From Methylopila sp. M107 (GTDB lineage: Bacteria; Pseudomonadota; Alphaproteobacteria; Rhizobiales; Methylopilaceae), in the NCBI RefSeq assembly GCF_000384475.1, contig NZ_ARWB01000001.1:1220176-1284175 (forward strand): a stretch of 64,000 bases of DNA, in the 5' to 3' direction. Numbering within the stretch: position 1 is the first letter of the stretch; each line of letters starts with the position of its first letter. Below are positions 28,382 through 42,919 of this stretch, piece after piece. A program made the position numbers and the translations under genes. Under the pieces are notes generated by a model. The model saw only the letters and a program-made list of their open reading frames with translations. It ran no database searches and had not been told where the DNA came from.

Positions 28382-28838
28382 CCCGCGGCGGCCCGGCATG
28401 GCCGGCCGCTCCGGCCGTCCGGACCATCCCTGGCCGCATGCATTTCCGAGAGAATGAGGCGTTTCGGCGGAGCGCCCCTGGCCGCGTCGGCCAGCCCATG
28501 CGGCCGGCCGGCCGCATTGACCCCTCGCCCAGTCGGTGACCCGGAGCGGTCTGTCCGGCAATCAGCGGAGCGACCCGCGACCACGCGACTCCAGGCGCGA
28601 GCAGCTCCTGCATCGCCAGCCACCTGTTCGAAGGCGCAGGTGGCGGAAGAGGTGTCCGCCTAACTAGGCTTTACCGGCCTTCCTGCTCCAGTTCCTTACC
28701 CGTGAAAAGATCAATATCTATCGGCAGTTAGGTGCTCGACTAACTTACTCAGTGGATCTAGCCTGCACCGCCCTTCACTCCAATAGCCGTTGTCTGCTAG
28801 GGATAGCGCTGGGGTATACGGGCGGTTGGGAGTGTGAG
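28382..28838. other. Intergenic region holding the left end of the island
   Basis: A 457-bp stretch between the NMO gene and the integrase. Up to 28640 it is GC-rich and shows nothing recognisable. From 28655 onward the base composition falls, consistent with the switch to acquired DNA just after the 14-bp repeat. The integrase promoter should lie in 28660-28835. Confidence 0.5.
28641..28654. repeat. attL: 14-bp direct repeat of the tRNA-Ser 3' end
   Basis: TGGCGGAAGAGGTG is identical to 42906-42919, the CCA end and 3' acceptor arm of tRNA-Ser(UGA). The match stops on both sides. It lies 185 bp upstream of the integrase start. Such a repeat is what tRNA-targeting tyrosine integrases leave. 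Confidence 0.75.
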
Positions 28839-30095
28839 ATGACGACGGGAAGGTCGATGAACAGACTTTCCGCGAGGTCGGTTGCGACAGCGCCGGCGGG
28901 CCGCCACGCGGACGGCGGCAACCTCTACCTTTTGGTGACCACGACCGGCGCGAAGTCGTGGTTGCTCATTTTTCGTCACGACGGACGGCAACGCGAGATG
29001 GGGCTAGGCGCGGTTCGCTCTGTCTCGCTCGCTCGTGCGCGAGAACTCGCCGCCGCTGCGCGGGCGCAGCTTTCTGACGGTATCGATCCGATCGAAGCGC
29101 GGAGGCAGAGCAGGGAAGAGGCATCGCGCGCCAGTAGGCGCGTTCCAACCTTCGGCGAGGCCGCGGATCAGATCATCGAGTCCATGGAGTCCGGCTGGCG
29201 TAACTCCAAACACCGCGCCCAATGGCGTATGACGCTTGGGCGAGCGCGTGACCCGGAAGGCGAGCTGACGGGGGAGGGATATTGCCTGGCGCTTGCCGAC
29301 AAGCCTGTTAACGAGGTCACGACCGCAGACGTCCTCGCAGTGTTGCGACCTATCTGGAGCGAGAAGGCAGAGACCGCCTCGCGTGTTCGAGGGCGGATCG
29401 AGGCCGTTCTGAATGCAGCAAAGGCCGAAGGGTTTCGGTCAGGCGAAAACCCCGCGCTCTGGCGCGGACATCTCGACAGGCTGCTCGCCAAGCGTCAGAA
29501 GCTTCAGCGCGGGCATCATAGGGCGCTCGCCTACGAGGATCTTCCAGCGTTCGTAGCGGACTTGCGCGGCCGGGATGGCGTCGCGCCTCTCGCGCTTGAA
29601 TTTGCCATCTTGACCGCCAGTCGAACAGGGGAAGTGCTCGGCGCAAGACGGAGCGAATTCGACCTCGATCGGCGTCTGTGGTCGATCCCCGCGGCGCGTA
29701 TGAAGGCGGGTCGTTCACATCGCGTGCCGCTCGTTGAGCGTGCGGTCGAGATCCTCGCCGAGCTTGAGCCTCTCCGTCGGGACGCGAGCACACCAGACGC
29801 CGTTATGTTTCCGTCGCCACGGCGCTCGAATGAGCCTCTCTCCAACATGGCATTGGCCACCGTGCTCAAGCGTATGGATTATTCCGTAACGACACATGGC
29901 TTTCGCTCGACATTTCGCGATTGGGCGGGCGACCAAACGAATTTCGCACGGGAGGTGGTGGAGGCGGCGCTGGCGCATTCAATTCGCGACGCGACGGAGG
30001 CGGCCTATAGGCGCCAAGATGCGTTAGAGAAGCGCCGAGAACTTATGAACGCCTGGGCGAGGTACGCCGCACCATCGACCGTTGAGGCCGACTAA
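28839..30095 (+). CDS. int: P4-type tyrosine recombinase integrase
   Basis: A 418-aa integrase with an N-terminal DUF4102-like arm-binding domain (RHADGGNLYLLVTTTGAKSW, RQREMGLGAVRSVSLARARE), a core-binding domain (about 105-205) and a catalytic domain with Arg in TASRTGEVLGAR, HGFRS in THGFRSTFRDWAG, a further His in LAHSIRD and the Tyr nucleophile in EAAYRRQD. It should integrate the element at the tRNA-Ser end and, with a directionality factor, excise it. The start is ATG 28839 behind GGGAG; an earlier start codon is in frame at 28752. Confidence 0.93.
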   Translation: MTTGRSMNRLSARSVATAPAGRHADGGNLYLLVTTTGAKSWLLIFRHDGRQREMGLGAVRSVSLARARELAAAARAQLSDGIDPIEARRQSREEASRASRRVPTFGEAADQIIESMESGWRNSKHRAQWRMTLGRARDPEGELTGEGYCLALADKPVNEVTTADVLAVLRPIWSEKAETASRVRGRIEAVLNAAKAEGFRSGENPALWRGHLDRLLAKRQKLQRGHHRALAYEDLPAFVADLRGRDGVAPLALEFAILTASRTGEVLGARRSEFDLDRRLWSIPAARMKAGRSHRVPLVERAVEILAELEPLRRDASTPDAVMFPSPRRSNEPLSNMALATVLKRMDYSVTTHGFRSTFRDWAGDQTNFAREVVEAALAHSIRDATEAAYRRQDALEKRRELMNAWARYAAPSTVEAD

Positions 30096-30162
30096 AGGGT
30101 GCCTGGGCGCCGCCGATTTTGACTCGGCTAGCTATGCGTCGAGCGCTACGTTCCGCACTTAC

Positions 30163-30202
30163 GATCATTGATTAGACGATTTTGAATAACCTGATCATTG
30201 AT
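30163..30202. repeat. Pair of 10-bp direct repeats GATCATTGAT
   Basis: Perfect copies at 30163-30172 and 30193-30202, 30 bp apart start to start (about three helical turns), in AT-richer non-coding DNA just after int. Likely protein-binding sites: integrase arm sites, excisionase sites or an operator for the following genes. Confidence 0.45.
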
Positions 30203-30219
30203 CCTTGTAATGCGGTCGA

Positions 30220-30462
30220 GTGGCCGCCTGTGGAAAAGTCTATCAACGCCAAATCCAAGCCTATATGCGTAGCGCAAACGCCGATTTGGCTCGGGTGCTG
30301 ATAACTGAGCAATTTCGGTCTGCACAAACCTTCATGGTCCGTCATGGTCGGTGCTGGAGATGTAACGAATCCGGCGAAGACATCGGCGTGAATTGCTCGC
30401 AATGTCCGCCCAACGATTTCCCCGGAGCGGATTATGCAAATTCCAAACACTACCCCCGTTGA
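30220..30462 (+). CDS. Possible small zinc-finger protein
   Basis: An 80-aa frame from GTG 30220 (ATG 30265 is an alternative) with a neat CWRC-x10-CSQC pair that looks like a zinc ribbon. It overlaps the start of the next gene by 29 bp in another frame and shows no strong ribosome-binding site, so it may be spurious. If real it is a small DNA- or protein-binding factor of the island. Confidence 0.35.
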   Translation: MAACGKVYQRQIQAYMRSANADLARVLITEQFRSAQTFMVRHGRCWRCNESGEDIGVNCSQCPPNDFPGADYANSKHYPR

Positions 30463-30634
30463 TCGAAGAGCCTTTCCAGTTCGCGGCGCAGCTGAATGGC
30501 TGTCCGTAAGCGAGTCTTACATTTGGAAAATGGCTCGCAATGGAAAGATCAAGCTTACCCGCGTGGGTGGGAGAACGTTGATCTTTAGCGAGGACCTAGA
30601 GCGCTTCATCGCAGAGATGCGAGCTTCATCTTAA
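30434..30634 (+). CDS. Excisionase/AlpA-like helix-turn-helix protein
   Basis: A 66-aa protein of the MerR/AlpA excisionase fold: FPVRGAAEWLSVSESYIWKMARNGKIKLTRVGG followed by a LIFSEDLERFI helix. In P4-like and PICI elements such proteins activate excision or early transcription. Its location just after int, near the GATCATTGAT repeats, fits a recombination directionality factor (inference). Confidence 0.75.
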   Translation: MQIPNTTPVDRRAFPVRGAAEWLSVSESYIWKMARNGKIKLTRVGGRTLIFSEDLERFIAEMRASS

Positions 30635-30642
30635 AACGAAAA

Positions 30643-30679
30643 CAGCCGCGCCATGCCGGGCGCGACTGCTTCATTTTTC
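30643..30679 (+). terminator. Probable intrinsic terminator after the HTH gene
   Basis: AGCCGCGCC and GGGCGCGACT form a stem of about nine pairs (one mismatch) with a short loop, followed after a few bases by ATTTTTC and preceded by an A-rich run. It would separate the int/excisionase unit from the replication genes. Confidence 0.55.
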
Positions 30680-30710
30680 ACTCGCCCCCGCGACGGGAAG
30701 AGATCAAGTA

Positions 30711-31424
30711 ATGACGAATATTAGCACGCCGCGCGGGCGTGAGCAATCTAACGCGCCGGACTTCGTGCGGATACTGAAAACAGATCAACTAGTACCGCGC
30801 GAGCGCGGGTTGATCAACGCGTCTTTGATCGCCGCTGAAGCCGCCCCCGACGGCCACGTCCAAGTCGATGTCTGGCCGGTCTTTCGCCTAGGCGGACGGC
30901 ATCTGCGCGGCGCGTTTCGCTGCCCTCAGTGTGAACAGGTCCATGTCGTCGGGCTGTCTGATCCGTTTATCAGATGCCCGGCGTGTCGGGGGAGAGTTGC
31001 GCCAGGCGCAAGGCGCATCGGCGATGTCAGGACGGTTTGGCGAATGCCGGAAGACACGCCCGAGCCGGTCGCTCATGACGTTGATCATCCTGAAATCGGA
31101 TGGTGTCCCGCGATGCTCGCGGAAGAGCTCCGTGGCATCGCCAAGACCCTCCGGCGTCGCAAAGATGGCCGTCCGACAAGCCGGGAACGGCAACGGCTGT
31201 TTGAGGCGCTCCGCGGCCTTCTACGGTGTCGCGCCTTCGAAGTGGCATTAGCTGAGCGATTAGATGGGGGGGAGTCCCGTCGTGACATCGCGGTCAGCCG
31301 CCGAGAGCTTTGCCACGAGATTTATCGTCGACATGCCGGGCCGGGCCGCACTTCGTTCGCCCGAACTGTCGATGTCGGGGGCAGGGCGCTCGAGCACCTG
31401 TTCTATCGAGGGTCGCTCTGGTGA
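30711..31424 (+). CDS. Zinc-ribbon protein upstream of the helicase
   Basis: A 237-aa protein of no family that I recognise. Residues about 66-95 hold CPQC-x14-CPAC, a zinc ribbon like those in primase and DNA-binding proteins; the C-terminal half is helical and Arg-rich (SRRDIAVSRRELCHEI). The stop codon overlaps the GTG of the helicase gene (GTGA), so the two are translationally coupled. The helicase lacks a recognisable primase domain, so this protein could supply the nucleic-acid-binding part (inference, no Toprim motif seen). Confidence 0.6.
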   Translation: MTNISTPRGREQSNAPDFVRILKTDQLVPRERGLINASLIAAEAAPDGHVQVDVWPVFRLGGRHLRGAFRCPQCEQVHVVGLSDPFIRCPACRGRVAPGARRIGDVRTVWRMPEDTPEPVAHDVDHPEIGWCPAMLAEELRGIAKTLRRRKDGRPTSRERQRLFEALRGLLRCRAFEVALAERLDGGESRRDIAVSRRELCHEIYRRHAGPGRTSFARTVDVGGRALEHLFYRGSLW

Positions 31425-32944
31425 GCGCGCCCCTCGACGACGCCATCACCGGCACCGACGACCCGTTCGACGCGGGCGACAAGGTCGACGAACAGATGCT
31501 GAGGCGAACTCTAATGGCGGCCGCGGGGCCGCTGGTTGACGTAGCCAATCATATCGACCCCCTCACCGGCGACTTTCGACCGCTTCCGCCCGCGCCGGTG
31601 GTCTGGGCCGAGGTCCTGCTATTTGAGGCATTCACTTTGAGCGGTGGCGAGCCAGATCTCATCTATTGGAATGACGCATGGTGGCGCTGGGAGGGGTCAC
31701 ACTGGAAGGAATCGAGCGACGGCGAGATCGAGGCCGAGGCTTACCGCGTGTTTCATCGCAAGCGGCTCTACCGCAAAGCGCTCGACGATATAAACGACGC
31801 GCCGCCGTTTAACCCAGATGGCAAAAAGCTCACCGAAACGCTCCGCGCGCTTCGCGCCCGAGTTCGCGTCGCTGGCACAGTCGAGCCGTTCCAATGGTTT
31901 GGCCGACGTCCCACCGATCCCGACCCTGCGGACCTGATCCCCTGCCAAAACGGCTTATTCAACCTCCGTACTAAAAGGCTGATGGCGGCGGACAGGCGCT
32001 TTATGGCGACGAGCGTGGGCGACTGGACGTTCGATCGTACTGTGACCGCCCCGCGCTTTATGGGCTTCGTCGAAAGCGTATGGCCGGGCGACGCGACGAC
32101 CCAGGGGTTTTTCCAAGAAATCCTTGGGTACATGCTCTCGGGAGACCGATCGCTTCAAAAAATTCCGGCGCTCATTGGGCCGCCCCGATCGGGCAAATCT
32201 CTCATCGCCCGAATTCTCGACAGCGCAGTCGGCAGCGGCCTCTACACGGCGCTATCGACTGCGCAGTTCGCCGAAAACTTCGGTCTGCAAGGCACCATCG
32301 GAAAGCGCGTCGCCGCGATACCGGACCTTCGGCTCAAACGGCAGGTCGATCACGGCGCCTTTGCCGAACGCCTTCTAACGATGTCCGGCGAGGACTCCGC
32401 CAGCATCCCCCAGAAGCATCGCGCCGACTGGCGAGGTTCACCCTCGGCCAAATTCATCTTCGCCGCCAATGAGCTTCCGGACCTCCGCGACGATAGCGGA
32501 GCTATCGCCAACCGCCTCGCTCCGCTCGTTTTCAGAAAATCATTCCTCGGCGTGGAAGATCCGAAGCTGTTCGATGCCATGCGCCGGGAGCTGGCGTGGA
32601 TCGTCAACTGGGCGGCGCTAGGCCTTGCGCGACTGAGGAAGCGCGGTTCGTTCGAGTTGCCCCAAGCGAGCCGCGACCTAATAGCGACCGCGACCGAAAG
32701 CGCGTCTCCAATAACCGCCTTCGTTCGTGAGCGATGCGAGCTCGACGAAAAGCGCGAGACATCCGTCGGTCTCATGCTCGACGTCTACAATGCCTGGCGG
32801 ATCGACGCTGGCGAGAAGCCGGCTAACGCCAATGCGCTCAGTCGAGGGCTCCGTGCAGCATATCAAATTGAGACCCGTCGAGAGCGAGGACCACGGTCGG
32901 CTGTCCGAGGCCGCGTCTATGGCGGTATTGGGATCGTGTCATGA
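31421..32944 (+). CDS. P4/D5-type phage replicative helicase
   Basis: A 507-aa SF3 helicase of the phage/plasmid primase P4 C-terminal family. A D5_N-like region precedes the motor (LIPCQNGLFNLRTKRLMA; FFQEILGYMLSGD). Walker A is GPPRSGKS (residues 253-260), and the sensor-like segment KFIFAANELPDLRDDSGAIANRL follows as in P4 alpha and VirE-like proteins. It is shorter than P4 alpha and has no visible primase active site. It should unwind the element's own origin; candidate binding repeats begin 15 bp after its stop codon. Confidence 0.85.
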   Translation: MSAPLDDAITGTDDPFDAGDKVDEQMLRRTLMAAAGPLVDVANHIDPLTGDFRPLPPAPVVWAEVLLFEAFTLSGGEPDLIYWNDAWWRWEGSHWKESSDGEIEAEAYRVFHRKRLYRKALDDINDAPPFNPDGKKLTETLRALRARVRVAGTVEPFQWFGRRPTDPDPADLIPCQNGLFNLRTKRLMAADRRFMATSVGDWTFDRTVTAPRFMGFVESVWPGDATTQGFFQEILGYMLSGDRSLQKIPALIGPPRSGKSLIARILDSAVGSGLYTALSTAQFAENFGLQGTIGKRVAAIPDLRLKRQVDHGAFAERLLTMSGEDSASIPQKHRADWRGSPSAKFIFAANELPDLRDDSGAIANRLAPLVFRKSFLGVEDPKLFDAMRRELAWIVNWAALGLARLRKRGSFELPQASRDLIATATESASPITAFVRERCELDEKRETSVGLMLDVYNAWRIDAGEKPANANALSRGLRAAYQIETRRERGPRSAVRGRVYGGIGIVS

Positions 32945-33263
32945 TCGGGATTTTCGGCGTGTCCGCCGTGTGTCCGCGTTGTCCCGAAAATGGCGGACAC
33001 GAGAAAGACAACGATATCAATATGTTGTCCGGCTGCGTCCGCGTGTCCGCTATTTTTCGTTCCAAGAGTCTTTCGCGGAAACAGGACACCAATGTCAGTC
33101 GTAGGAAGCACAATAGAGAAAAATGGCGGACACAGCGGACACGGACGCACGCGGCGGAAATTAACACGCTGATAACGCAGCCTTTTTCGTGCCCAAAGCT
33201 TTCGGCGGCCGATACCGTTAGAATAGCGGACACGTCCATGGATCGCCTGATGGGCGTCGCACC
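32945..33263. other. Candidate replication origin with seven GCGGACAC iterons
   Basis: This stretch of about 320 bp has seven exact GCGGACAC/GTGTCCGC octamers: 32959-32966 (-), 32970-32977 (-), 32993-33000 (+), 33043-33050 (-), 33126-33133 (+), 33135-33142 (+) and 33226-33233 (+). Four copies share an A-rich flank (consensus AAAATRGCGGACAC). Two are 11 bp apart and two 9 bp apart. A longer imperfect repeat, TTTTTCGT..CCAA..TTTCG.CGG, occurs at about 33053-33078 and 33184-33209. The position directly after a P4-type helicase gene suggests an iteron origin. Confidence 0.6.
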
Positions 33264-33671
33264 ATGATTGTGCCCCGCCAGCGCCCCGACGACCCGGCCG
33301 GTGAGCTCTCGGCATGGCTGCGCGCCGTCGCGGCTCACATGTCCCCCGAGGCCGCCAAGATGGCCGGCGAGGTCGAGCGCGGCCTTTTGCAAAGCTCGCG
33401 GGCGCCGGGACCTCGCCCGGCCACCATCGACGCCGACAACGCGCTCCGTCGCCTCAAGCGACTTCTTTATCCGGCGATCTCGGCAAACGCCGCAGCGACG
33501 GAAATGGCAAGGCTTGCGGCTCGATACGAGGCGGTCGGCTGGAAGCGAGACCGAGAGGCAGGGCTTGCCCCGACGGAAGAGCCCCACCGAACATTCTTCA
33601 AGCTCCTGACGGTCGACAAGAAGCTATCTCAAAGATCAATTCGCAGAGCGATTGAAGGTGAAAGGTTATGA
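33264..33671 (+). CDS. Unrecognised island protein
   Basis: A 135-aa soluble, Arg/Ala-rich, mostly helical protein (GELSAWLRAVAAHMSPEAAKMAG in the N-terminal part; DKKLSQRSIRRAIEGERL at the end). No family recognised. It starts at ATG 33264 directly after the iteron region and runs in the same direction as the helicase. It may belong to replication or its control, but nothing proves that. Confidence 0.55.
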   Translation: MIVPRQRPDDPAGELSAWLRAVAAHMSPEAAKMAGEVERGLLQSSRAPGPRPATIDADNALRRLKRLLYPAISANAAATEMARLAARYEAVGWKRDREAGLAPTEEPHRTFFKLLTVDKKLSQRSIRRAIEGERL

Positions 33672-33750
33672 TCTATTCGTTGTCCAAACAGATGTGATTT
33701 ATTTGGACAACGCGAGTCGGCAAGATGTCGCTAGAGCGGAGAAGAAGCCA

Positions 33751-34149
33751 ATGTCGGCCAACAATATCGATCTCAATCGCCTGCGACACCTTATTGACCT
33801 CGCGCAAACGCAGGCAGACCGGAGGCGGCGTCTTGGCGAGACGTATCGCCGACGGCGCGATGATCGAAGGCGCATCGAGATTGAGATCGAGACCTATGGT
33901 CAGGCGCGCCACGGGATCTTCCCGACCCGACCGGCACAATCAGCCGGCCCTCGCCGTTCGCACGAGGACCTTCTCGCTCAGCGATTGACCGACGCGCGTA
34001 TGGCCGAAGGCGAAGCATTGGCCGCGCAGGAAAACGCGACCCGCGAGGGCGCGCCTTCCATGACACTGGCTCGCGAAGCCGCCGAATACGCACGGTCGGT
34101 TCTACGGGACCGATGCCCCGTCGATATTGTTGAGCACCTGGAATCTTAA
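33751..34149 (+). CDS. Unrecognised charged coiled-coil-like protein
   Basis: 132 aa from ATG 33751, which has GGAG about ten bases upstream; a longer frame begins at 33652 but carries no better signal. The N-terminal two thirds are rich in Arg/Glu/Gln (QADRRRRLGETYRRRRDDRR) and likely helical. There are no Cys clusters or membrane segments. Two bases separate it from the next gene, so they form one transcription unit. Confidence 0.6.
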   Translation: MSANNIDLNRLRHLIDLAQTQADRRRRLGETYRRRRDDRRRIEIEIETYGQARHGIFPTRPAQSAGPRRSHEDLLAQRLTDARMAEGEALAAQENATREGAPSMTLAREAAEYARSVLRDRCPVDIVEHLES

Positions 34150-34151
34150 CC

Positions 34152-34679
34152 ATGGCCAAGACCGCAACTAAATCCGCGCTCGACGAAATCGAAGTCTTCC
34201 GAGACCGCATTAACGAGGTCCGCGAGGCGATCGAAGCTGCGGAGCGCGCGCCCGTCGACCTTGCCACGGTGAAAGAGCGTGTTGCTGGTTTCGTCGATAG
34301 TCAGGTCGACGAAGCAAGAGAATGGCTCGGCGTTTCAGCCTTTGCCGGTCGTCAAGGGGCGATGGGGCATCTCGGCGACTTACAGTTCGGTTCGGCGTTC
34401 TCTCGCGCACCCTTCGGCGTACTGGCCCAGTTCGTCGGACGCGAGGCCATTCAGAACAAGCTCATCGAGATGGCCGCACCGAGCGCCGCGGGCGGCGTTG
34501 GCGAGGGCGAACGCATGGCGACAGTCGCTAGCCGGACGCGAGAGCTCGGCGAGCTTGAGCGATCCGAAGAGGCTGCGATCCGCGCCCTCGAAGAGCATGG
34601 CGAGGTCATCATCCGCCGCCCCGACGCTAATCCGGCGATCGTGCTCGCCCGCGATCTCAACCTTGTGGAGGCTGAGTAA
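34152..34679 (+). CDS. Unrecognised island protein
   Basis: A 175-aa protein: a helical, acidic N-terminus (DEIEVFRDRINEVREAIEAAE), a Gly/Ala-rich central part with mild hydrophobicity and a C-terminal helical region ending DLNLVEAE. It resembles structural or morphogenetic small proteins of phages only in composition. Its TAA stop overlaps the ATG of the next gene (TAATG), indicating translational coupling. Confidence 0.55.
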   Translation: MAKTATKSALDEIEVFRDRINEVREAIEAAERAPVDLATVKERVAGFVDSQVDEAREWLGVSAFAGRQGAMGHLGDLQFGSAFSRAPFGVLAQFVGREAIQNKLIEMAAPSAAGGVGEGERMATVASRTRELGELERSEEAAIRALEEHGEVIIRRPDANPAIVLARDLNLVEAE

Positions 34680-34840
34680 TGGCGATCGACAACAAAGAGC
34701 TTTGGCGACGTGCTTTGAAGCCGAAGCAGACGGCGGCCGAAACCGCGCCGGCACCCGTCGCAACCGTCCGTAAAGGGCCCGATGCGTTCAAACTAGCGCT
34801 CTGGAAAGCAGCGCTGCGCGTGCCGGCCGAGCGCCAATGA
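34679..34840 (+). CDS. Small unrecognised protein (53 aa)
   Basis: Starts at ATG 34679 overlapping the previous stop codon and ends at TGA 34838-34840. It encodes a basic 53-residue product (MAIDNKELWRRALKPK at the start, LALWKAALRVPAERQ at the end). The two Trp-containing ALxxP-like segments suggest a short amphipathic protein. It is kept because of the overlap coupling and consistent orientation. Confidence 0.5.
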   Translation: MAIDNKELWRRALKPKQTAAETAPAPVATVRKGPDAFKLALWKAALRVPAERQ

Positions 34841-35065
34841 CTTCCCTTTGCGGCCTGCCTTGGCCTCGGCTGGCCGCGATCGCCCGGCCGGCTCGTCACC
34901 GGTCGATATCTGCCCGTCGTCTGGCTTCGTCACCGGGCGGCGGGCGGCGACCCCGGCACAAAGCGGGTCCTTGGGACGGGGCCCCTACTGCGGGGAGCGC
35001 GGCCGCGCAGGCTTTCGCTAGCGGGTTAGAAAAAATTTTCACTTAAGTTTCAGGGGGTTAAAAGG

Positions 35066-35554
35066 TTGAGCGTTCAGCGGCTATCTAAGGCGAAATTTGC
35101 CTCCTTGCTCGGCGTCACCCCGCCTAGAGTATCTCAGTATGCAAAGCTTGGCCTACCAGTCGAGCCAGACGGAAAGATCGACCCGGACGTCGCACTAAAG
35201 TGGCTTAAGTCGAACGTTAAGTCCGCAGCGTCCTCGACCAAAAACCCGGCCGATACATCTGGCCTGATCGAAATGCGTATCAGGTTGATCGAAGTTCAGG
35301 TCGCTCGCGGCGAGGTCGCACTTCAGCGCGAGCGCGGCGAGGTCATCGATAAGGACGTCATCGTTCGGTTCGTCGTCGACTGGAATACAAAGATCAAGAT
35401 CGGCTTGCTGAACTTCGCGGCCAGGCGCGGCCCCGGCATCGCGGCGAAAGTCGGCGCCGCTGAGGTCGAACTCATCGGCCTGCTAGAAGCTGCGATGCGC
35501 GAACATATGAATGAGATGGCCGACGAGCCGCTGCCGATGGGCATCCAAGCATGA
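35066..35554 (+). CDS. Phage terminase small subunit (Nu1-like)
   Basis: A 162-aa DNA-packaging initiator. The N-terminal winged helix-turn-helix (LSKAKFASLLGVTPPRVSQYAKLGLP) would recognise a packaging site, and a helical region (LIEMRIRLIEVQVARGEVALQRERGEVIDKDVI) corresponds to the oligomerisation/TerL-contact part of Nu1-like proteins. The start is TTG 35066 behind GGGGG. In satellites such as PICIs a private TerS redirects the helper's TerL to satellite DNA. No TerL gene is in the island. Confidence 0.72.
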   Translation: MSVQRLSKAKFASLLGVTPPRVSQYAKLGLPVEPDGKIDPDVALKWLKSNVKSAASSTKNPADTSGLIEMRIRLIEVQVARGEVALQRERGEVIDKDVIVRFVVDWNTKIKIGLLNFAARRGPGIAAKVGAAEVELIGLLEAAMREHMNEMADEPLPMGIQA

Positions 35555-36783
35555 GGCTTGATCTCGCCCATATCGCCGGAAGCACGTTTAACACGCCGCT
35601 TTTGATGCACCGCCGGCGCCTCGACACCGCGCTTGCGGCGCTCGGACCGCGCATCCTTGAAGGTGCCGCGGCGGGCCGACAGATCAATGCCGACAAAATC
35701 GCTGCGGCTATGGCGAGGCGCCAATGCGGCGATATTGGCGTCGTTCGCATGTATACCGGTGGCGCCTACCTGACGGATTTGGGCATCGGCGTGCTTCCGA
35801 TTCTCGGCACGCTCGTTCGGCGCGGAACTTGGCTCGATGCCGAGTGCGGCCTCATGAGCTACGGCCTTATCCGGCAGGGGTTCGACGACATGCTCGCGGA
35901 CCCCAGCGTGCGTGGCGTCGTCGCCGAGTACGACACGCCAGGCGGCGAGGCCGGCGGATGTTTCGACCTCGCGCGTCATATGCGGGCTGCGGCGAAGGCG
36001 GCCAGGAAGCCGCTGTGGTCGCACGCCAACGAACTCGCGGCCTCTGCAGGCTATGCGCTGGCGTCCGCGGGCGAGCGGATTTGGATAGCGACGACAGGCG
36101 AGGTCGGGTCTATCGGCGTCGTCGCGGCTCACGTCGACATGAGCAAGGCCGACGAAAGAGCCGGCCTCAAATGGACCTATATTTTCAAGGGCGAGCGGAA
36201 GGTCGACGGCAACCCGCATGAGCCTCTCAGCGGCGCCGCGGACAAGGCCGTCCGCGCCGACGTCTCGGCGCTTTACGACATGTTCGTCGACCTTGTGGCC
36301 GGACATCGCGGGATTTCCGCTCAGCGGGTGCGCGAAACCGAGGCAGGGTGCTTTAGAGGCGACGCAGCGGTTCAACAGAAGCTCGCCGATAAGGTCGGCA
36401 CGCTCGAGGACGCGATCGGGGCGCTAGCAGAGAAAATCGGAGTGGAAACGTCGTTGTCCTCTCAGCCGTCGGCCCGGCGAGTTCAACAAGCGGCCGCGCG
36501 CCACCCGGAGGTCATCGCCGCTCTCGCGGCTGACCGCACCCGCAGCGCAGCACTTACGGCGCTCGGCGTCATGGCCGCCAAGCTCGGCGTGACCTTTGAC
36601 GCCTCGGCCGCAATCGCCGGCAACGTCGGTGTACAGGCCGCTCGAAATGCTGTGCTCAACGCCGCGGCCGAGAAAGATGAAGCGGTCATCACCTGTAGCG
36701 GTCCGGGAACAGCGGAACAGAGCGACCGCACTGGCACCGCGTCGACTCGCGCGATGTGGCGCAAAGCGCTGCAGAGGGCATGA
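35551..36783 (+). CDS. S49-family prohead protease (lambda gpC-like)
   Basis: A 410-aa SppA/ClpP-fold serine protease. The substrate groove region is GVVAEYDTPGGEAGG, the Ser nucleophile lies in ANELAASAGYALASAG and the catalytic Lys in GERKVDGNPHEPLSG. The C-terminal 120 residues are Ala-rich and helical, as in proteins that also carry a scaffold part. In phages it matures the portal/capsid shell; here it has no capsid or portal partner. ATG overlaps the TerS stop (ATGA), and the stop is 3 bp from the tape-measure gene. Confidence 0.82.
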   Translation: MRLDLAHIAGSTFNTPLLMHRRRLDTALAALGPRILEGAAAGRQINADKIAAAMARRQCGDIGVVRMYTGGAYLTDLGIGVLPILGTLVRRGTWLDAECGLMSYGLIRQGFDDMLADPSVRGVVAEYDTPGGEAGGCFDLARHMRAAAKAARKPLWSHANELAASAGYALASAGERIWIATTGEVGSIGVVAAHVDMSKADERAGLKWTYIFKGERKVDGNPHEPLSGAADKAVRADVSALYDMFVDLVAGHRGISAQRVRETEAGCFRGDAAVQQKLADKVGTLEDAIGALAEKIGVETSLSSQPSARRVQQAAARHPEVIAALAADRTRSAALTALGVMAAKLGVTFDASAAIAGNVGVQAARNAVLNAAAEKDEAVITCSGPGTAEQSDRTGTASTRAMWRKALQRA

Positions 36784-36786
36784 TCC

Positions 36787-38697
36787 ATGTCGCAGAGCGA
36801 AGCCAAGGTCGTCCTATCAGTCGTCGACCGCATCACGGGTCCGCTCGCCGGGATTCAGGCGCGCATCAATCGTCTTACTGCGCCCATCCGCAACATCGGG
36901 CGCGCCATCGGCGACATCGGCCGCGCCGCCGGCGTCGACCGCCTTGCCGGGCGTGTCACCGAGCTCGGTCGCCGCATCGGCCATACCACGCAACTCGCGC
37001 GCGGCCTTATCGCCCCGCTGGCGCTCGCCGCCGGCGTGGGGCTCACGTTCGGCGCGCGCGATCTCATCAAGACGAACGCCCAATTCGAGAAGTTCGGGAC
37101 GGTCCTCGAAACCGTCCTCAAGTCGCCCGAGAAGGCGCAAAAGGCGCTCGGCTGGATCTCGACGTTTGCGGCAAAGACGCCTTACGAACTCGCCGAGACG
37201 ACCGGCGCGTTCGTGAAGCTCACGTCTTATGGCATCGACCCGGTCAAGGGCTCGCTACTGAGCGCCGGCAACGCGGCCGCGGCTATGGGGAAGCCGCTAA
37301 ACCAGGCGGTCGAGGCCATCGCCGACGCAATGAGCGGCGAAAATGAGCGCCTTAAAGAGTTCGGCATCACGACGTCGAAGGCCGGCGGCAAAATCATGTA
37401 TTCGTGGGTCGAAAACGGAAAGCAGATGACGGCCTCCGCGAAAAAAAATTCGCGCGAGCAGATCCTGTCTGTAATCAACGGGATTTGGAATCGTCAGTAT
37501 ACCGGCGCGATGGACAAGCTTTCCGCGACTTGGGACGGCATGGTCGGCAATCTCAAAGATCAGTGGGCGCGCGGAATGCTCGCCATCGGCAAGGCCGGAT
37601 TTTTTGATTACATAAAGGGCCGGCTCGCGTCCTTGCTGGATTACGTCAAGGGCCTTGCGGACTCGGGTCGTCTCGCGGAAATCGGCAAACAGATCAGTGA
37701 CGGCCTCGTCGGCGGAGTGAAGGCCGTCGAGGAGGCGCTGCGCGCCGTCAATTGGGGCGACGTTTGGGAAAGCGTGAAAGCCGGCGTCGAGGTCGTCAAG
37801 AGCGTCGGCGCGGCGTTAGGCTGGCTATCCGGGCTCGTCGGCGGCCCCGTCCAGGCGGCGCTTTTGGTCCTCGGGACGTTTACGCTCGCGCCGCTTCTTG
37901 CGTCCATCATCTCGGTGGGCGCGGCGTTCGCTTCGGTTCTGCTAGCTCTGCTCTCGCCGGCGGGAGCCGTTATCGTCGCCATAGCTGCGCTAGCAGGGGC
38001 TGCGGCGCTCGTCTATCGAAATTGGGAACCGATCAAGAGGCTATTCAGCGACATTTGGGCGAAACTGTCCGAGGTTCCCCAGTTCAAGGCATTCGAGAAC
38101 GTCAACGCGACGTTTTACGCGGCCGGCGTCGCGATCGTCGACTCTCTGTGGAGTGGCATCCAGTCGGTCTTCTCGTCGCGCATTGGCAACGGCCTGCGCG
38201 CCGAACTCGCCATCCTTACGAATTGGATGCCGGAATGGCTTAAGGGGCGGCTCGGCCTGTCTGAAATCGGCAGGTCCTTGCCGACCGGCGGCGCGAGCGG
38301 TTCCTATGCGCCGCCAACGCCGGCAATCCCCGGCGCGCCCGCGTCTGGCACGCCCGGCGTCGGCGCAGCGCAACAGGGCGGCGCATCGGGCGGATGGACG
38401 CCGTCGAGCCCCTGGGCGGGCGCTACGCCGCCTTCCAACGCAAGCGCGAACGGTCGCGTTGCCGGGGCCTTCGCCGCCCCCGCGGCGGCTCCTGCACCCG
38501 CCCCGGCGCCGGCCGTCGTCCCGATCGTCTCGGCGCAGCCGGACATTAACGTGAGCGCGCCGCTTAACCTCGACGCCGCCTTTAATTGGTCGAGCGCTGA
38601 CGCGACGTTGGCGCAAGTTCGCTCGCTGTTGGAACGTTACCGCGCGGAGAGCGAAGCACGCATCCGAGCGGCTACAGCGTCAGCCTTAGCGGACTGA
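36787..38697 (+). CDS. Phage tail tape measure protein
   Basis: A 636-aa protein. The N-terminal part contains VVLSVVDRITGPLAGIQARI and a tape_meas_nterm signature (GNAAAAMGKPLNQAVEAIADAMSGENERLKEFGI). Two hydrophobic segments follow at about residues 345-420. A Pro/Gly/Ala-rich low-complexity stretch (about 500-585) precedes a helical C-terminus. If it works as a ruler it predicts a rather short siphovirus-like tail. An A8 tract (37441-37448) lies in the frame, but the protein continues normally after it. Confidence 0.8.
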   Translation: MSQSEAKVVLSVVDRITGPLAGIQARINRLTAPIRNIGRAIGDIGRAAGVDRLAGRVTELGRRIGHTTQLARGLIAPLALAAGVGLTFGARDLIKTNAQFEKFGTVLETVLKSPEKAQKALGWISTFAAKTPYELAETTGAFVKLTSYGIDPVKGSLLSAGNAAAAMGKPLNQAVEAIADAMSGENERLKEFGITTSKAGGKIMYSWVENGKQMTASAKKNSREQILSVINGIWNRQYTGAMDKLSATWDGMVGNLKDQWARGMLAIGKAGFFDYIKGRLASLLDYVKGLADSGRLAEIGKQISDGLVGGVKAVEEALRAVNWGDVWESVKAGVEVVKSVGAALGWLSGLVGGPVQAALLVLGTFTLAPLLASIISVGAAFASVLLALLSPAGAVIVAIAALAGAAALVYRNWEPIKRLFSDIWAKLSEVPQFKAFENVNATFYAAGVAIVDSLWSGIQSVFSSRIGNGLRAELAILTNWMPEWLKGRLGLSEIGRSLPTGGASGSYAPPTPAIPGAPASGTPGVGAAQQGGASGGWTPSSPWAGATPPSNASANGRVAGAFAAPAAAPAPAPAPAVVPIVSAQPDINVSAPLNLDAAFNWSSADATLAQVRSLLERYRAESEARIRAATASALAD

Positions 38698-38699
38698 AA

Positions 38700-39134
38700 A
38701 TGACCGACATTCCAACTTTGCATTCTTTCGATCGCGCGGTTGTCCAACGGATCGCAGAGTTCGGGGGCCTGCCCATTCTGCTCACCCCCATCGTTACGGC
38801 GATCGACGATCGCCGTGATCCAGATTCCGGGGCGGCCGAGAGCCTTTGGACGGTAGAGGCGTCAGTCGAGGGAGGTCCGCGGCTTCAATGCCAGATCGCG
38901 ATAGCAAAAAGCGCGGCGGAATCTTCAGACTGGCTCGCTTCCTATGAACCAGTTTTGGTCGCGACCTCCAACGATACTCGCCGGGGGGCGCTATCGGCCG
39001 TCTCCTATGATCTCGTCCCTCTGAGAAAAGGTGCCGAGTTTGCCGCTGGGCTCAGGGCATTGCGCGGGGAGATCAGCCGCCTGTACGCCCTGAAATGTAT
39101 TCGTCCACCAAAATACATATTCATTTGTGCCTAG
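38700..39134 (+). CDS. Unrecognised protein after the tape measure
   Basis: A 144-aa protein, starting at ATG 38700 directly after the tape measure stop codon. It is beta-rich in its first 100 residues (LWTVEASVEGGPRLQCQIAI, LSAVSYDLVPLRKGA), compatible with a small tail component, but no family is recognised. The last 12 codons (ending PPKYIFICA) are AT-rich and run through an inverted repeat, so the natural C-terminus is uncertain. Confidence 0.55.
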   Translation: MTDIPTLHSFDRAVVQRIAEFGGLPILLTPIVTAIDDRRDPDSGAAESLWTVEASVEGGPRLQCQIAIAKSAAESSDWLASYEPVLVATSNDTRRGALSAVSYDLVPLRKGAEFAAGLRALRGEISRLYALKCIRPPKYIFICA

Positions 39135-39249
39135 GATTGTCATTTTGCAAATCGAATTGACGTTATACAAATAGTTATGACGTAATTACTCGTTGCAAAT
39201 CGGCTCAAATGGAGACATTTATCTATTCGTGGATCAACGGAGGCCGATT
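39095..39249. promoter_or_regulatory. AT-rich control region with inverted and direct repeats
   Basis: ATGTATT (39095-39101) and AATACAT (39112-39118) form a 7-bp inverted repeat. TTGCAAATCG occurs twice (39145-39154 and 39193-39202). Between these, TTGACG and an ACGTAA sequence 17 bp later could be a promoter. It lies just before the gene pair that ends in HTH regulators, so an operator role is likely. Confidence 0.4.
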
Positions 39250-39582
39250 ATGCTTGCACTGATTGAGCGCACTTCATTCGACGGGCGGGTAGGCAGCGAT
39301 GACGACGCCATGTTGGCTGCGTTGAGAGCGGGATCGGCACTCCGCCTTCGCGTAGACTCGGCGGCCTGCACCGACGAGGAGGCCGACGACCTGTTGGCGC
39401 GCATCGTGGAAATTGATGACGCGATACCGCGCCTCAGAGCGTCAACCGCCGCCGGCGCTGCAGTCGCACTCCGTGAGGCTCGCCGCCAGTGGGAACTTCA
39501 TCATGCCCGGCCCGGCGAGCCTGGACACGACGTAATGAGTTCGCTGCTGGCTGCGGCCGACATATTGGGTGCATCGGCGTGA
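39250..39582 (+). CDS. Unrecognised small protein before the regulators
   Basis: A 110-aa protein from ATG 39250, which has GGAGG seven bases upstream. It is mostly helical and acidic (DDDAMLAALRAGSALRLRV; EADDLLARIVEIDDAI). Its stop overlaps the GTG of the next gene (GTGA), so it is translated together with the HTH protein. No family recognised. Confidence 0.55.
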   Translation: MLALIERTSFDGRVGSDDDAMLAALRAGSALRLRVDSAACTDEEADDLLARIVEIDDAIPRLRASTAAGAAVALREARRQWELHHARPGEPGHDVMSSLLAAADILGASA

Positions 39583-39803
39583 GTCCCCTGCTCACGGTCA
39601 ATGAGGTCGCCGAGCGGCTGCGTGTATCCGCAAAAACCTTGAGCCGGTGGAGGACCCTGGGGCAGGGGCCGCATTTCCTGAAATTGGGCGGAGGCATTAA
39701 GTACCGCGAGAGCGACCTTGAGGATTGGATCGAGAACCGCGGGCGAACGGCGACACGCTCAGGCACCGCGGCGAACGCCGACATTAAGAAGGGCGCTCGG
39801 TGA
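39579..39803 (+). CDS. Small helix-turn-helix DNA-binding protein
   Basis: A 74-aa excisionase-type wHTH: LLTVNEVAERLRVSAKTLSRWRTLGQGPHFLKLGGGIKYRESDLEDWI. It starts at GTG 39579 and overlaps the preceding stop. A second small wHTH besides that at 30434 suggests separate regulators for recombination and for this right-hand operon. It is followed by a 4-bp overlap with the next gene. Confidence 0.72.
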   Translation: MSPLLTVNEVAERLRVSAKTLSRWRTLGQGPHFLKLGGGIKYRESDLEDWIENRGRTATRSGTAANADIKKGAR

Positions 39804-40363
39804 CGAGAACGAGGCCGCTCCCGCAAATCTCGCTAGCGCGCCAGCCGGATGCGATGGCCGCTATAGAAGCGGGCGTCGCGGCCAGTGGCGGAAGCATGCG
39901 GCTTGCTTGTCGTCGAGCCGGCGTATCGCGCAATGCCTATTATGCTTGGCGGTCAGGGGCCCGCGCACCAAGCGCCCCGAAGCTTGTCGAACTCGCTGCA
40001 CAAGCGGGCTATGAGGTCGTGCTCGTAGGCCACGGTCGCACCTTCGCCTTGACCGACTTTCCAGGCGTAATGGCGGCGCTGGACACCCGTCGACGCCGCA
40101 TGAAGATCTCCATCCTCACGTTAGAAGAACGCTCGGGCATCGCCAGCCGATCATATAGCTATTGGCTTACGGGGCGGCGCCAGCCGGCGGTTCTCGCGCT
40201 CTCGACCCTCGCCGAGACGCTCGGCTTTTCTCTTCTCATGCGCCCGCGAGAGGACCCGAGCGACCCTCGCGTCGTCGCGCTCGCGCCGGCGGCCGAGGCG
40301 CTATCCGAACGGCTCACGACGCTGGCCGGCATCACGAACGCGATCATGGCGCACGCACGCTAA
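39800..40363 (+). CDS. Double HTH transcriptional regulator
   Basis: 187 aa from GTG 39800 with two helix-turn-helix-like segments: the first in GGSMRLACRRAGVSRNAYYAWRSGARAPSAPKL, the second in ISILTLEERSGIASRSYSYWLTGRRQPAVLALSTLAETLGFSLLM. Its tandem XRE-like arrangement suggests a repressor or a regulator of the neighbouring R-M genes or of helper-responsive induction (inference). Confidence 0.6.
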   Translation: MTRTRPLPQISLARQPDAMAAIEAGVAASGGSMRLACRRAGVSRNAYYAWRSGARAPSAPKLVELAAQAGYEVVLVGHGRTFALTDFPGVMAALDTRRRRMKISILTLEERSGIASRSYSYWLTGRRQPAVLALSTLAETLGFSLLMRPREDPSDPRVVALAPAAEALSERLTTLAGITNAIMAHAR

Positions 40364-40375
40364 CCTTCGGCGAGG

Positions 40376-40421
40376 CGATGGGACTTGGCACCGCGTCGAG
40401 CAGCCCTGCGAAGTCCCATCG
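40376..40421. terminator. Inverted repeat between convergent genes
   Basis: CGATGGGACTT (40376-40386) pairs perfectly with AAGTCCCATCG (40411-40421) around a 24-nt loop, between the HTH regulator and the convergent methyltransferase. There is no T-tract. It is either a bidirectional attenuator-like structure or a protein-binding palindrome. Confidence 0.35.
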
Positions 40422-40437
40422 GATAGAAGCCAGCGGC

Positions 40438-41586
40438 CTACTCGGCCGCGTCTATGAGCGCGGCGCGGCCGAGTGAGGCCCCACGCATACGGACTGTACG
40501 TAGAGCGACGCGTTCGCTGTCAGTCATCGTCATCGCGGCGGGGCGCGACGCCGGGTCGCCATGAAGGCCTTCAGGGTCGATCGTCCAGCCCATCTGCTCA
40601 GCCATCGATCGTGCGACGGCGGCCGCGAGCGGCGGAGGAACCGCGTTGCCGACCTGCCTGTACTGCTGAAGTCGCGGGATCCGGTCCGGCCAGATGAAAT
40701 CGTCCGAGAACCCCTGAATGCGCGCGCTCTCGCGCACGGTGATGACCCGGTCGTAGCTGTAGTGGACGGGCCTCAGCGGGCTGAAGTTCCCGCTGCCCGC
40801 GCGCAGCGTGTACGACGGCTTCTGCGCATGGAGACGGTCGTGGAACGACCCCTTCTCCCGCTTGCCCGGCTGTAGCGTCGAGAAGCGGCGGACCATGTCG
40901 GCGCTGTGGGCGGTAGGCTCGTGATTGTGGACGCCGTTCGCGCCGAACTCGCCCGCGTCCGGGAGGTCGCCAATGGCGTCACTCGCCGTCGCGAAAGGCA
41001 GGCGCCCAGGGCCGTGCGTCGGCTCGGGGAACGATACCGACTTCCGGCCCTTGAAGCCCAGCAGGATGAGCCGCTTGCGCCCCTGCGGCACGCCGAAGTC
41101 CGCGGCCGAAAGGACCTCGAACTTCACCGAATAGCCGAGGGCGCGGAGGTCGGCGGCGGCCTTCTTCAGGACGACGCCGCCCTCGATAGTGACCAAGTTC
41201 GGGACATTCTCGAGCAGGATGGCCTTGGGTGCCAGCTCGCGGACGATGCGCACGTACTGCGCCATCAAGTCCGCGCGGATGTCCTCGGCGCCCCGACGCT
41301 TGCCGACGATCGAGAACGGCTGACACGGCGGTCCGCCGATGAGGAAGTCGACCGACGTCAGCCCGGCGCTGTGGAGGAGATACTCGCCCGTCACGTTCGA
41401 CAGGTTCGCCGCGACGCCAATGGAGCCACGGTAGGCGTGGTTGTAATTGTAGGCGTCGACCGCGCGGAGATCGAGTTCGAAGCCCGCGGCGACGTGGAGG
41501 CCCGCGTCTAGGAAGCCCGTCGACAGGCCACCGCATCCGGCGAAAAGCTCGATCCCGATGGGCTTGCGTGACGTCATCTGGCTCAC
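40438..41586 (-). CDS. C5-cytosine DNA methyltransferase
   Basis: A 382-aa type II modification enzyme: motif I FAGCGGLSTGFLDAG, motif IV GGPPCQPFS with the catalytic Cys near residue 88, motif VI LLENVPNLV, motif VIII QGRKRLILLGF, motif X YRQVGNAVPPPLA. The recognition sequence cannot be read from the sequence. Its GTG (41586) overlaps the stop of the endonuclease gene (GTGA); ATG 41577 is an alternative. It protects the island's host DNA from the paired nuclease. Confidence 0.92.
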   Translation of the reverse strand: MSQMTSRKPIGIELFAGCGGLSTGFLDAGLHVAAGFELDLRAVDAYNYNHAYRGSIGVAANLSNVTGEYLLHSAGLTSVDFLIGGPPCQPFSIVGKRRGAEDIRADLMAQYVRIVRELAPKAILLENVPNLVTIEGGVVLKKAAADLRALGYSVKFEVLSAADFGVPQGRKRLILLGFKGRKSVSFPEPTHGPGRLPFATASDAIGDLPDAGEFGANGVHNHEPTAHSADMVRRFSTLQPGKREKGSFHDRLHAQKPSYTLRAGSGNFSPLRPVHYSYDRVITVRESARIQGFSDDFIWPDRIPRLQQYRQVGNAVPPPLAAAVARSMAEQMGWTIDPEGLHGDPASRPAAMTMTDSERVALRTVRMRGASLGRAALIDAAE

Positions 41587-42536
41587 TGCTGAGGCACGTT
41601 GGTGGCTCGAATCGCGGCGATCTGAGCTTCAGAAGGGTTGATCATATAGCTTGCGTTTTTGACAACCTTCAGAGCCGACGCCTTAGTCGCGAGATTAAAC
41701 TCCATGAAGTGGATCACGGATTGGAAGTCTACTTTCACGGCGAGCGGTCTGATCGTGTGGTGCGGGTAGTAGTGCTTCGCGTAGGCGATCATGTTCAATA
41801 TCTGCACGAGGTTGAGGGCGTCCGAGACCGCCTTTGCCTCGATAGGGAAGATCACCGGGATCTCATCCTCGCTCTGTCCGATGCCAACGTCTATGGCGTC
41901 GAGCTCTGCCTGCCCGAGGCCGGGAACCGACTTCCGTACGTGAGAGCGCAGGCGATAGATCGTCATGCCCGCAAAGTGGTCAAGTAGTCGGCAGTACCCG
42001 ACGACCGACAGCAGCGCCTGCTCGTCCATCTCGGCCACTGTCTCGGGCAGTAGGCGCCGCACAGGCATCGGGGTGTGGTCGATTGTGGCGATGGGTGTGC
42101 TCGCCGGCGGCTCGATGATGCCTGCCTGCGCCCGCTCGAACTGGTACTGACCGCGGCCGACGCCGCGCAAAACATGAAATCCCTTTTCGAGGATCTCTTG
42201 TGGAAGGACGGTTCGTGATCGCATGCGGTAGATCACATCAGCAGCGTTCCGAGCAGAAATCTTGTCCGGGTTCGGCGACGTCGCGCGAACAGCGTCCACT
42301 GCGTTGCGGATATCATCGAGGCTGAAGAGCACGCTCGACGCCCCCGGGCGGAAGCGATCTTGAAAAATCTTCAGAATGACCGGGACGTACACCTTGGAGT
42401 TTCGGCCGTGCGACTGCAGGCTCTTGGGCTTCTTGCCCGCGGGCACCTCATCGATGCTGACGACCTCGGTGACCTTGTCCTTCTTCGTCGCGCGCTTGCG
42501 CTTAGGCGCGCTCGCGTCGAGGTCGTCTTCCGCCAC
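41583..42536 (-). CDS. Putative type II restriction endonuclease (PD-(D/E)xK-like)
   Basis: A 317-aa protein with a basic N-terminal tail (PKRKRATKKDK) and a plausible PD-(D/E)xK core: D216 in AIDVGIG and E233-A-K235 in FPIEAKAVSDALN. It precedes and overlaps the C5 methyltransferase, the standard arrangement of an R-M pair. Start is GTG 42534-42536 behind GGAGGG. It has no clear family name and is assigned by motif and neighbourhood. Cleavage specificity is presumably the methyltransferase target. Confidence 0.68.
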   Translation of the reverse strand: MAEDDLDASAPKRKRATKKDKVTEVVSIDEVPAGKKPKSLQSHGRNSKVYVPVILKIFQDRFRPGASSVLFSLDDIRNAVDAVRATSPNPDKISARNAADVIYRMRSRTVLPQEILEKGFHVLRGVGRGQYQFERAQAGIIEPPASTPIATIDHTPMPVRRLLPETVAEMDEQALLSVVGYCRLLDHFAGMTIYRLRSHVRKSVPGLGQAELDAIDVGIGQSEDEIPVIFPIEAKAVSDALNLVQILNMIAYAKHYYPHHTIRPLAVKVDFQSVIHFMEFNLATKASALKVVKNASYMINPSEAQIAAIRATNVPQQ

Positions 42537-42905
42537 GTGATTCCCTCCCAGGATGAGCGGGAGCAGATCATACCTAGTTCAGAGCCGGTAGTAGGGACGG
42601 ATACAGGCGGCGTCAAAGCGGTTTGGCCCCGCCCGCGTTCGGTCAGCGGGACACTAGCGCTTCGTTGTGCTGCGGCTCCTCGCGGCTGAGAAGTTCGCCG
42701 ACCTGGGAGAGGGCGAGCCCCTCGGACTAGCCCGTGCTGGCAAAGAACCGGCGGAGGTGGCCGCGCCAGCCGGCCGGCATTCAGCTCATTTGAGGAGCCG
42801 ATCTGTCCCTAAAAAACGTTTTCAGCAACCTCGGCGCTGTGCTGGGGCTAATGCTAGGGAAGGAGTGATCGGCATCGGTATTCGTGCTCAATTATGAACG
42901 GTTTT
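42537..42905. other. Right end of the island, no gene seen
   Basis: A 369-bp region between the endonuclease start and the tRNA. It should hold the promoter of the R-M operon near its left edge. A 76-aa frame on the plus strand has no ribosome-binding site or family signal and was not called. An A-run/T-run (CTAAAAAACGTTTTCAG) near 42806-42825 is the only visible small palindrome. Confidence 0.45.
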
Positions 42906-42919
42906 TGGCGGAAGAGGTG
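42906..42919. repeat. attR: island right end inside tRNA-Ser
   Basis: TGGCGGAAGAGGTG, identical to 28641-28654. Here it reads, on the minus strand, as the 3' acceptor end and CCA of the tRNA, so the tRNA gene is complete after integration. Confidence 0.75.

Follow-up and report, generated by a model that had tools for sequence, protein, structure and literature searches.

The 64,000-nt window analysed here (positions 1,220,176-1,284,175 of the one-contig, 4.45-Mb genome of Methylopila sp. M107) contains an island that we investigated as a candidate phage satellite encoding its own tail tape-measure protein (TMP). Coordinates are those of the window on the forward strand; genomes carry G-numbers (G000 is M107), as does one phage, G397, and L-numbers denote loci taken from genomes or from IMG/VR. 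A first-pass annotation had described a 14.3-kb block flanked by a 14-bp direct repeat, and this was borne out: the repeat, TGGCGGAAGAGGTG, is found at 28641-28654 (attL) and 42906-42919 (attR), and nowhere else in the window on either strand. attR lies within the 3' end, including CCA, of a tRNA-Ser(UGA) gene (42906-42995, minus strand), the integration target, and attL is an exact copy of the tRNA 3' end; neither attachment (att) site is assigned a strand. The repeat-bounded unit measures 14,265 bp and occurs once in the genome, inside the window. With att sites and an integrase of its own, it is a precise mobile unit, as phage satellites are. GC content per kb is 0.56-0.67 in the island and mostly 0.65-0.73 outside, with dips of 0.63-0.64 at 22-24 kb.

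The gene flanking the island on the left (27425-28381) stands 14.5 kb from the tRNA-Ser gene in M107, 1.6 kb in G208 and 1.9 kb in G205. Eight genomes were fetched, and the left flank was found at the tRNA-Ser site in three of them, the third being G034 (at 5.5 kb); it was not found in the other five within the 15 kb taken at tRNA-Ser. Read from this flank-to-tRNA spacing, G208 and G205 are two sister genomes without the island at this site. An IS110-type transposase gene (26330-27271) was also noted near the island's left boundary.

Island proteins were scanned against Pfam, PHROGs, NCBIfam and PADLOC, and these databases named the integrase, AlpA-like helix-turn-helix (HTH) protein, P4/D5 helicase, Nu1-like terminase small subunit (TerS), S49 protease, tape measure and restriction-modification (R-M) pair that had been proposed earlier. 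On the plus strand, the integrase gene (28842-30095; Arm-DNA-bind_3, Phage_int_M and Phage_integrase) is followed by genes for an AlpA/excisionase-like HTH_17 protein (30434-30634, assigned by the family scans), ZnR (30711-31424) and a P4/D5-type primase-helicase (31421-32944; D5_N, DUF5906 and TIGR01613, over the cut-off). ZnR, read earlier as a zinc-ribbon protein, has CxxC pairs, but no Pfam family was found over the cut-off. Matches of the helicase to plasmids were all below 60% identity. Three small genes come next on the same strand: o135 (33264-33671), o165 (33652-34149) and o175 (34152-34679). The product of o175 is predicted to be helical, with an AlphaFold mean pLDDT of 85, and fold searches with the predicted structure gave no match at E ≤ 0.001.

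A gap of 386 bp, mostly noncoding and starting with a 53-codon open frame, separates o175 from terS and holds a 59-bp cohesive-end-site (cos)-like element (34965-35023, plus strand) that ends 43 bp upstream of terS. The terS gene (35066-35554) encodes a Nu1-type protein assigned through phrog_57 (E 9.8e-23); neither Pfam nor NCBIfam gave a match, and no match was found among named phages. It is followed by the genes for an S49 head protease with a scaffold-like C-terminal part (35551-36783; phrog_53, 8.6e-95) and the 636-aa TMP (36787-38697; TMP_3, 5.8e-19; phrog_973, 1.1e-43), all on the plus strand. Ser165 and Lys217, which we take to be the catalytic pair of the S49 protein, are retained at positions aligned with phage relatives. 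The long portal profile phrog_21 has an S49 part, to which this protein shows a match as well; used alone as a query against viral contigs, the protein gave no match. Directly after the TMP gene stand o144 (38700-39134), whose structure model was poor and was not used, o129 (39193-39582), a second HTH_17 gene that overlaps o129 and has an uncertain start codon (39489-39803), and the gene for an HTH_3 regulator (39800-40363), again on the plus strand. Between o165 and o144, four pairs of neighbouring genes are almost contiguous, at distances of 2, -4, 3 and 2 bp. The right end is occupied on the minus strand by a type II C5 cytosine DNA methylase gene (40438-41586; family scans and PADLOC) and a type II restriction enzyme gene (41583-42536; PADLOC PDLC03404, E 4.9e-41; no match in Pfam or NCBIfam).

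No terminase large subunit (TerL), portal, capsid, sheath, tube or baseplate protein was recognised among the island proteins scanned, which agrees with the earlier statement that TerL, portal and capsid genes were missing. The M107 genome was searched with the GpA-type TerL and Phage_portal_2 families, and the only match is in a different element, roughly 1 Mb from the island. M107 holds a second compact element at G000:C1, ~2,283,900-2,295,500 (L055/L056), with a relative of the integrase, a decoration protein, a capsid-protease fusion, a portal, a GpA TerL and a relative of TerS. Genes for a tail were not seen in it; it looks like a capsid-forming satellite, and a similar element is present in G206:C4.

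A search with the TMP matched 11 of 199 genomes of the order, M107 included. Two other genomes of the same genus, G142 and G170 (Methylopila sp. Yamaguchi, NZ_BAUX01000017.1), were found to carry related islands: one of 15,066 bp at tRNA-Ser(CGA) with a 14-bp repeat in G142, the other of 14,857 bp at tRNA-Arg(CCG) with a 54-bp repeat in G170. The recurrence of the gene order, which had been named as a check, was thereby found in two further genomes and at other tRNA genes. All three islands follow a similar order of integrase, ZnR, helicase, small satellite-only genes, a subset of head genes, TMP, two satellite-only genes and HTH. BLAST places ZnR, o165, o175 and the second HTH protein in the same order in all three; o144 and o129 have BLAST relatives in G142, and in G170 they are recognised by position and alignment only (25% and 31% identity, respectively). 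The product of o135 has a partial match in the G170 island (E 7e-5, over 30% of its length). The M107 integrase is 63% identical to that of G142 and 24% to that of G170; the helicase is 46% identical to the G142 copy and belongs to a different PHROG family in G170. A similar gene order is present in 3 of 18 family genomes, M107 included, and the ZnR profile likewise matches 3 of the 18. Across 397 genomes of the order, this profile gave three strong and two weak matches (G029 and G360), and no such island is present at the match in G360. Further TMP matches were found in G030 and G151, and within longer gene runs in G119, G126, G141, G099 and G079. The G142 island encodes at its variable end (L016:15615-15899) a 94-aa protein that by eye has the look of a HicB-type antitoxin; PADLOC gave no match.

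The head genes differ from island to island. M107 has TerS and the S49 protease; G170 has TerS (55% identical to that of M107) and a 181-aa protein whose match to S49 is confined to the scaffold-like C-terminal part; G142 has a portal (phrog_21, E 2e-93) and S49, and TerS was not found in its island. The TMP is kept in all three, at lengths of 614-636 aa. Because G170 keeps a scaffold-only protein, the comparison suggests that a predicted effect on head assembly lies in the scaffold part and not in proteolysis.

These shared genes bear on the question of whether the M107 island is a satellite or the remains of a prophage resembling the Acidithiobacillus phage AcaML1 (JX507079), stripped by deletion of TerL, portal, capsid and most tail genes. 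TerS, S49 and TMP stand in phage order and are related to phage genes, as such remains would have them. However, five small genes are common to three islands at three tRNA genes, three of them by BLAST in every island and two in G170 as described above, and they have relatives in none of 102 phage-type loci. Of these loci, 80 were collected by TMP and 17 by portal, with 5 more besides; some share a contig with one another, and L077 is an island in its own right. In this set ZnR, o108, o135, o165, o175, o144 and o129 all lacked relatives, and relatives were found for the helicase in one locus, for the second HTH_17 protein in four and for the HTH_3 regulator in one. Full-length prophages with the same flanking genes, the case named as refuting a satellite, did not appear among these loci. 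The integrase, helicase and reading frames are also intact and the near-abutting gene pairs argue against decay, as do dN/dS values of 0.13-0.38 across 11 comparisons, although these are tempered by dS above 1 in nine of the 11, by two comparisons being island against phage and one being part of another, and by their silence on when selection acted.

The TMPs themselves point the same way. A tree was built from 35 TMPs, 4 from islands and 31 from phages; three of 31 listed loci (L076, L103 and L105) were dropped because no gene call matched. The TMPs of the three Methylopila islands group together in one clade (support 100/99), whose neighbours are an Aureimonas prophage and IMG/VR phage 3300048849_000185; the branch of G397 is long and its placement unsure. 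Of 125 IMG/VR TMP loci, 80 were kept, and tblastn detected a tail sheath in 47 of them and not in 33. Gene maps of five of the sheathless loci revealed an island like that of G004, described below (L077), a locus with apparent Mu-type transposition genes (L080) and three phage-like loci. We are highly confident that the M107 island is a phage satellite, and consider an origin by prophage decay very improbable. The evidence supports the earlier proposal: a presumably helper-dependent satellite that has gained morphogenesis genes and a restriction system.

The same annotation had placed an iteron-rich region in the island, and this was unsupported. In 142 overlapping 300-bp stretches, at most five approximate copies of an 11-mer were found per stretch; when the 12 best stretches were each compared with 30 dinucleotide shuffles, two had more copies than any of their shuffles (4 against at most 3), both within genes (terS and tmp), which equals chance expectation. 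The feature found before terS is instead the cos-like element. In the gap upstream of terS, one block is conserved across the three islands, with local scores of 63 and 68 against shuffle maxima of 42 and 33 (100 letter shuffles). It is built of GGGTCCT, about 18 bp, TGCGGGGRRCGCGGCCGCGCA and then CTAGC; it begins 178 bp before terS in G170 and stands before the portal gene in G142. An exact 22-bp core was found only at the three island sites in the 18 family genomes, and so was an exact 20-bp core in the 397 genomes of the order, where one-mismatch matches resemble background. A lambda cosN-like 12-mer, GGGCGGCGACCC, was considered at 34942 and rejected: it had 3 matches against 1.98 expected and none in the G170 gap, and G142 offered only a two-mismatch match on the opposite strand.

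An exact 19-bp scan of IMG/VR matched a single contig, phage G397, in which the element lies 2.25 kb before terS. As an independent test, phages were collected by portal alone, giving 17 loci; two further phages found in this way have it upstream of terS, at 1.6 and 2.5 kb, so that it is common to three islands and three phages. Element-carrying AcaML1-like phages include IMGVR_UViG_2693429792_000001 and IMGVR_UViG_2921289301_000015, whose identifiers resemble those given to isolate genomes. One more of the 17 loci, L280, a 10.3-kb IMG/VR contig belonging to this phage group, has a diverged element upstream of terS (L280:202-276). Among 45 IMG/VR loci with an 18-bp core, the flanking parts occur in G397 only; of the others, 43 lack them entirely and one retains a single part. 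Besides G397, 22 IMG/VR loci, a few of which are near-copies, match a gapped form (GGGTCCT, 14-21 bp, GCGGGGANCGCG). Relatives of the GpA-type TerL were found at 10 of these 22 loci and of the G397 portal at 6, versus none of 44 core-only loci, and the TerLs at gapped-form loci (among L262-L276) are 24-46% identical to that of G397. The gapped motif may be a cos marker of GpA-terminase phages more widely, and the 59-bp element is most likely the cos site of the helper.

By PHROGs, G397 encodes TerS, TerL, portal, S49, decoration protein, major head protein, tail sheath and TMP, together with an integrase-like gene; its putative tube is labelled 'head closure'. Its TerS is about 31-34% identical to those of the islands (34% to M107), and its portal and S49 are 63% and 41% identical to those of G142. 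In the three island hosts, no close relative of the G397 portal was found outside the G142 island. The M107 HTH_3 regulator is 35% identical over 78% to a regulator of G397 (37504-37983), a possible point of cross-talk between satellite and phage. AcaML1 has the order Nu1-gpA-portal-S49, and its S49 is 47% identical to that of the island over 73%; unlike the island, it is a full phage. On the strength of the shared cos-like element, AcaML1-like contractile-tailed phages are very likely the type of helper, and the phage genes named by PHROGs together with the gapped-form loci raised our already strong confidence in cos and helper type by a further small step. The three contigs of element-sharing phages measure 39.8, 43.7 and 30.0 kb, and the satellites are about one third the size of the first two. 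Phage-inducible chromosomal islands (PICIs) are about one third the size of their helper genomes (PMC6092414; this and the other papers given by accession are drawn on here through parts of their text). The size ratio fits this PICI rule and would suit packaging in small heads or as multimers.

Several observations weigh against this assignment of cos and helper. The full element was present in only 3 of the 17 portal-related loci, one of them being G397 again, and conservation and position make up the whole basis for calling it cos. In AcaML1, of which 40.8 kb were examined, no such element was found. The TMP of G397 matches the island TMPs over the N-terminal part only and has its best PHROG in a different TMP family (phrog_2276); among viral contigs, the island TMP is matched best over its full length (45%) by IMGVR_UViG_3300048849_000185, whose portal matches at 70% and in whose examined stretches the element was not found.

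Taken together, we infer that the M107 element is probably a phage satellite at tRNA-Ser(UGA) that is induced by an AcaML1-like helper, packaged through cos and transferred in altered heads with chimeric tails. A helper with a contractile tail, Nu1/gpA terminase, lambda-type portal and S49 protease would enter the cell or be induced, upon which the satellite would excise by its own integrase and AlpA and replicate by its own P4-type helicase. Its DNA would be cut and packaged at the 59-bp element by the helper TerL, with the TerS of either satellite or helper. The S49/scaffold protein would alter or replace a head-assembly protein of the helper, and the satellite TMP would replace that of the helper, so that the particles would consist of helper proteins and have a chimeric tail. 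By analogy with published satellites, we consider such use of the TMP reasonably likely; against it, neither a tail assembly chaperone (TAC) nor a baseplate hub was recognised beside the M107 TMP in the family scans, unlike in the phage-inducible chromosomal island-like elements (PLEs) of Vibrio. The R-M genes would be cargo in a variable end slot.

The tail and head genes could also serve interference: TerS, the scaffold fragment and TMP would be decoys by which helper heads and tails are spoiled and the host is protected, and transfer would be secondary. Blockers of tail assembly are carried by satellites and prophages, among them Tab, which acts on the TMP (PMC10884400), Tai, which prevents the assembly of tails (PMC11364771), and Rta of PLE11, which targets the TMP of phage ICP1 (PMC12987554); the retention of only the scaffold-like part of S49 in G170 would suit a decoy. 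Yet in the parts of these papers drawn on, Tab, Tai and Rta are not themselves tape measures, and full TMPs of 614-636 aa beside a cos-like element point to use in particles, which makes interference unlikely as the main role. A further explanation is that the satellite TMP shortens tails to suit a small head. It draws on the TMP lengths of 728 and 806 aa in two close phages compared with 614-636 aa in the islands; however, the TMP of G397, which shares the element, has 612 aa, so that shorter tails are not consistently predicted, and particles of PmCI172 combine small heads with tails of normal length (PMC6092414). We regard tail shortening as improbable, and retain the satellite with chimeric tails as the preferred account.

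A second island with a TMP was found in G004, of another family in the same order. It spans 12,512 bp at tRNA-Lys with 47-bp repeats (G004:C7, 327,834-340,392; L018/L019) and encodes an integrase-like protein, an AlpA-like protein, a primase/helicase, TerS, a capsid-protease fusion, a decoration protein and a TMP. Neither TerL nor portal was found among the seven proteins scanned, and the other called proteins have at most 200 aa, except for the integrase-like one. IMG/VR contig 2828001536_000006 (L077) is a near relative of this island. In the tree, the G004 TMP stands apart from the Methylopila TMPs, and a single origin was recovered in 0% of 200 bootstrap trees; as judged from this tree, it is of separate origin.

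Among known satellites, the M107 island shares with P4 an AlpA-like HTH protein and a P4-family primase/helicase. P4 also carries sid, psu, delta and epsilon; none of these was named in the Pfam, PHROGs and NCBIfam scans of the M107 island, and the predicted helper is not P2-like. A cos common to satellite and helper is known for P4 (PMC6092414) and predicted here. The layout is that of a PICI, with 14.27 kb, the order int-alpA-helicase and its own att in tRNA-Ser. EcCICFT073 and PmCI172 are likewise near 15 kb and have int, alpA, a replication gene and some homologues of head genes, and PmCI172 has a Mu-like contractile-tailed helper; in contrast, a tape measure is not mentioned for them in the parts of PMC6092414 drawn on, and the likeness is one of description, not protein by protein. 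Capsid-forming PICIs (cf-PICIs) also carry phage head genes, some with putative tmp genes (PMC10690885; PMC12987554, Extended Data Fig. 10 legend), but they encode TerS, TerL, portal, capsid and connectors, of which TerL, portal and capsid were not recognised in M107.

The closest parallel in the tail is found in the Vibrio PLEs, in which the TMP of PLE11 is incorporated into PLE particles and a chimeric tail is built on the satellite TMP (PMC12987554, 2026). Deletion of tmp in three PLEs lowered transduction by about 96% to 99.9%, and the benefit of the tail takeover was left open there (PMC12987554). The principle of a satellite with its own TMP is thus already published, and the M107 island is an alphaproteobacterial case; as to the earlier remark that no described Hyphomicrobiales satellite had this exact combination, the literature searched, which left out most subscription journals and bioRxiv preprints, yielded no report of a Hyphomicrobiales satellite with a tape measure. 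The benefit of tail takeover becomes testable outside Vibrio with this second family, which is alphaproteobacterial and has a class of candidate helpers and a predicted cos, and three natural variants with differing head genes and a constant TMP allow one to ask which part transfer needs. Searching for a shared packaging element is also a practical route to a candidate helper where none is resident. Like the PLEs, the Methylopila islands appear to be satellites of a contractile-tailed phage that encode their own TMP, with the helper predicted in this case. They differ in that PLEs have a TAC beside the TMP, a baseplate hub in PLE11 and ICP1 as helper, whereas the Methylopila islands add TerS, S49/scaffold or portal, and att repeats in tRNA genes. 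We tentatively suggest that the islands form a lineage of their own, distinct from PLEs and cf-PICIs, whose head genes were exchanged while the TMP alone among structural genes was always retained, so that its core would be takeover of the tail and not of the head; the separate gain of a TMP in G004 would then make tail takeover convergent among alphaproteobacterial satellites.

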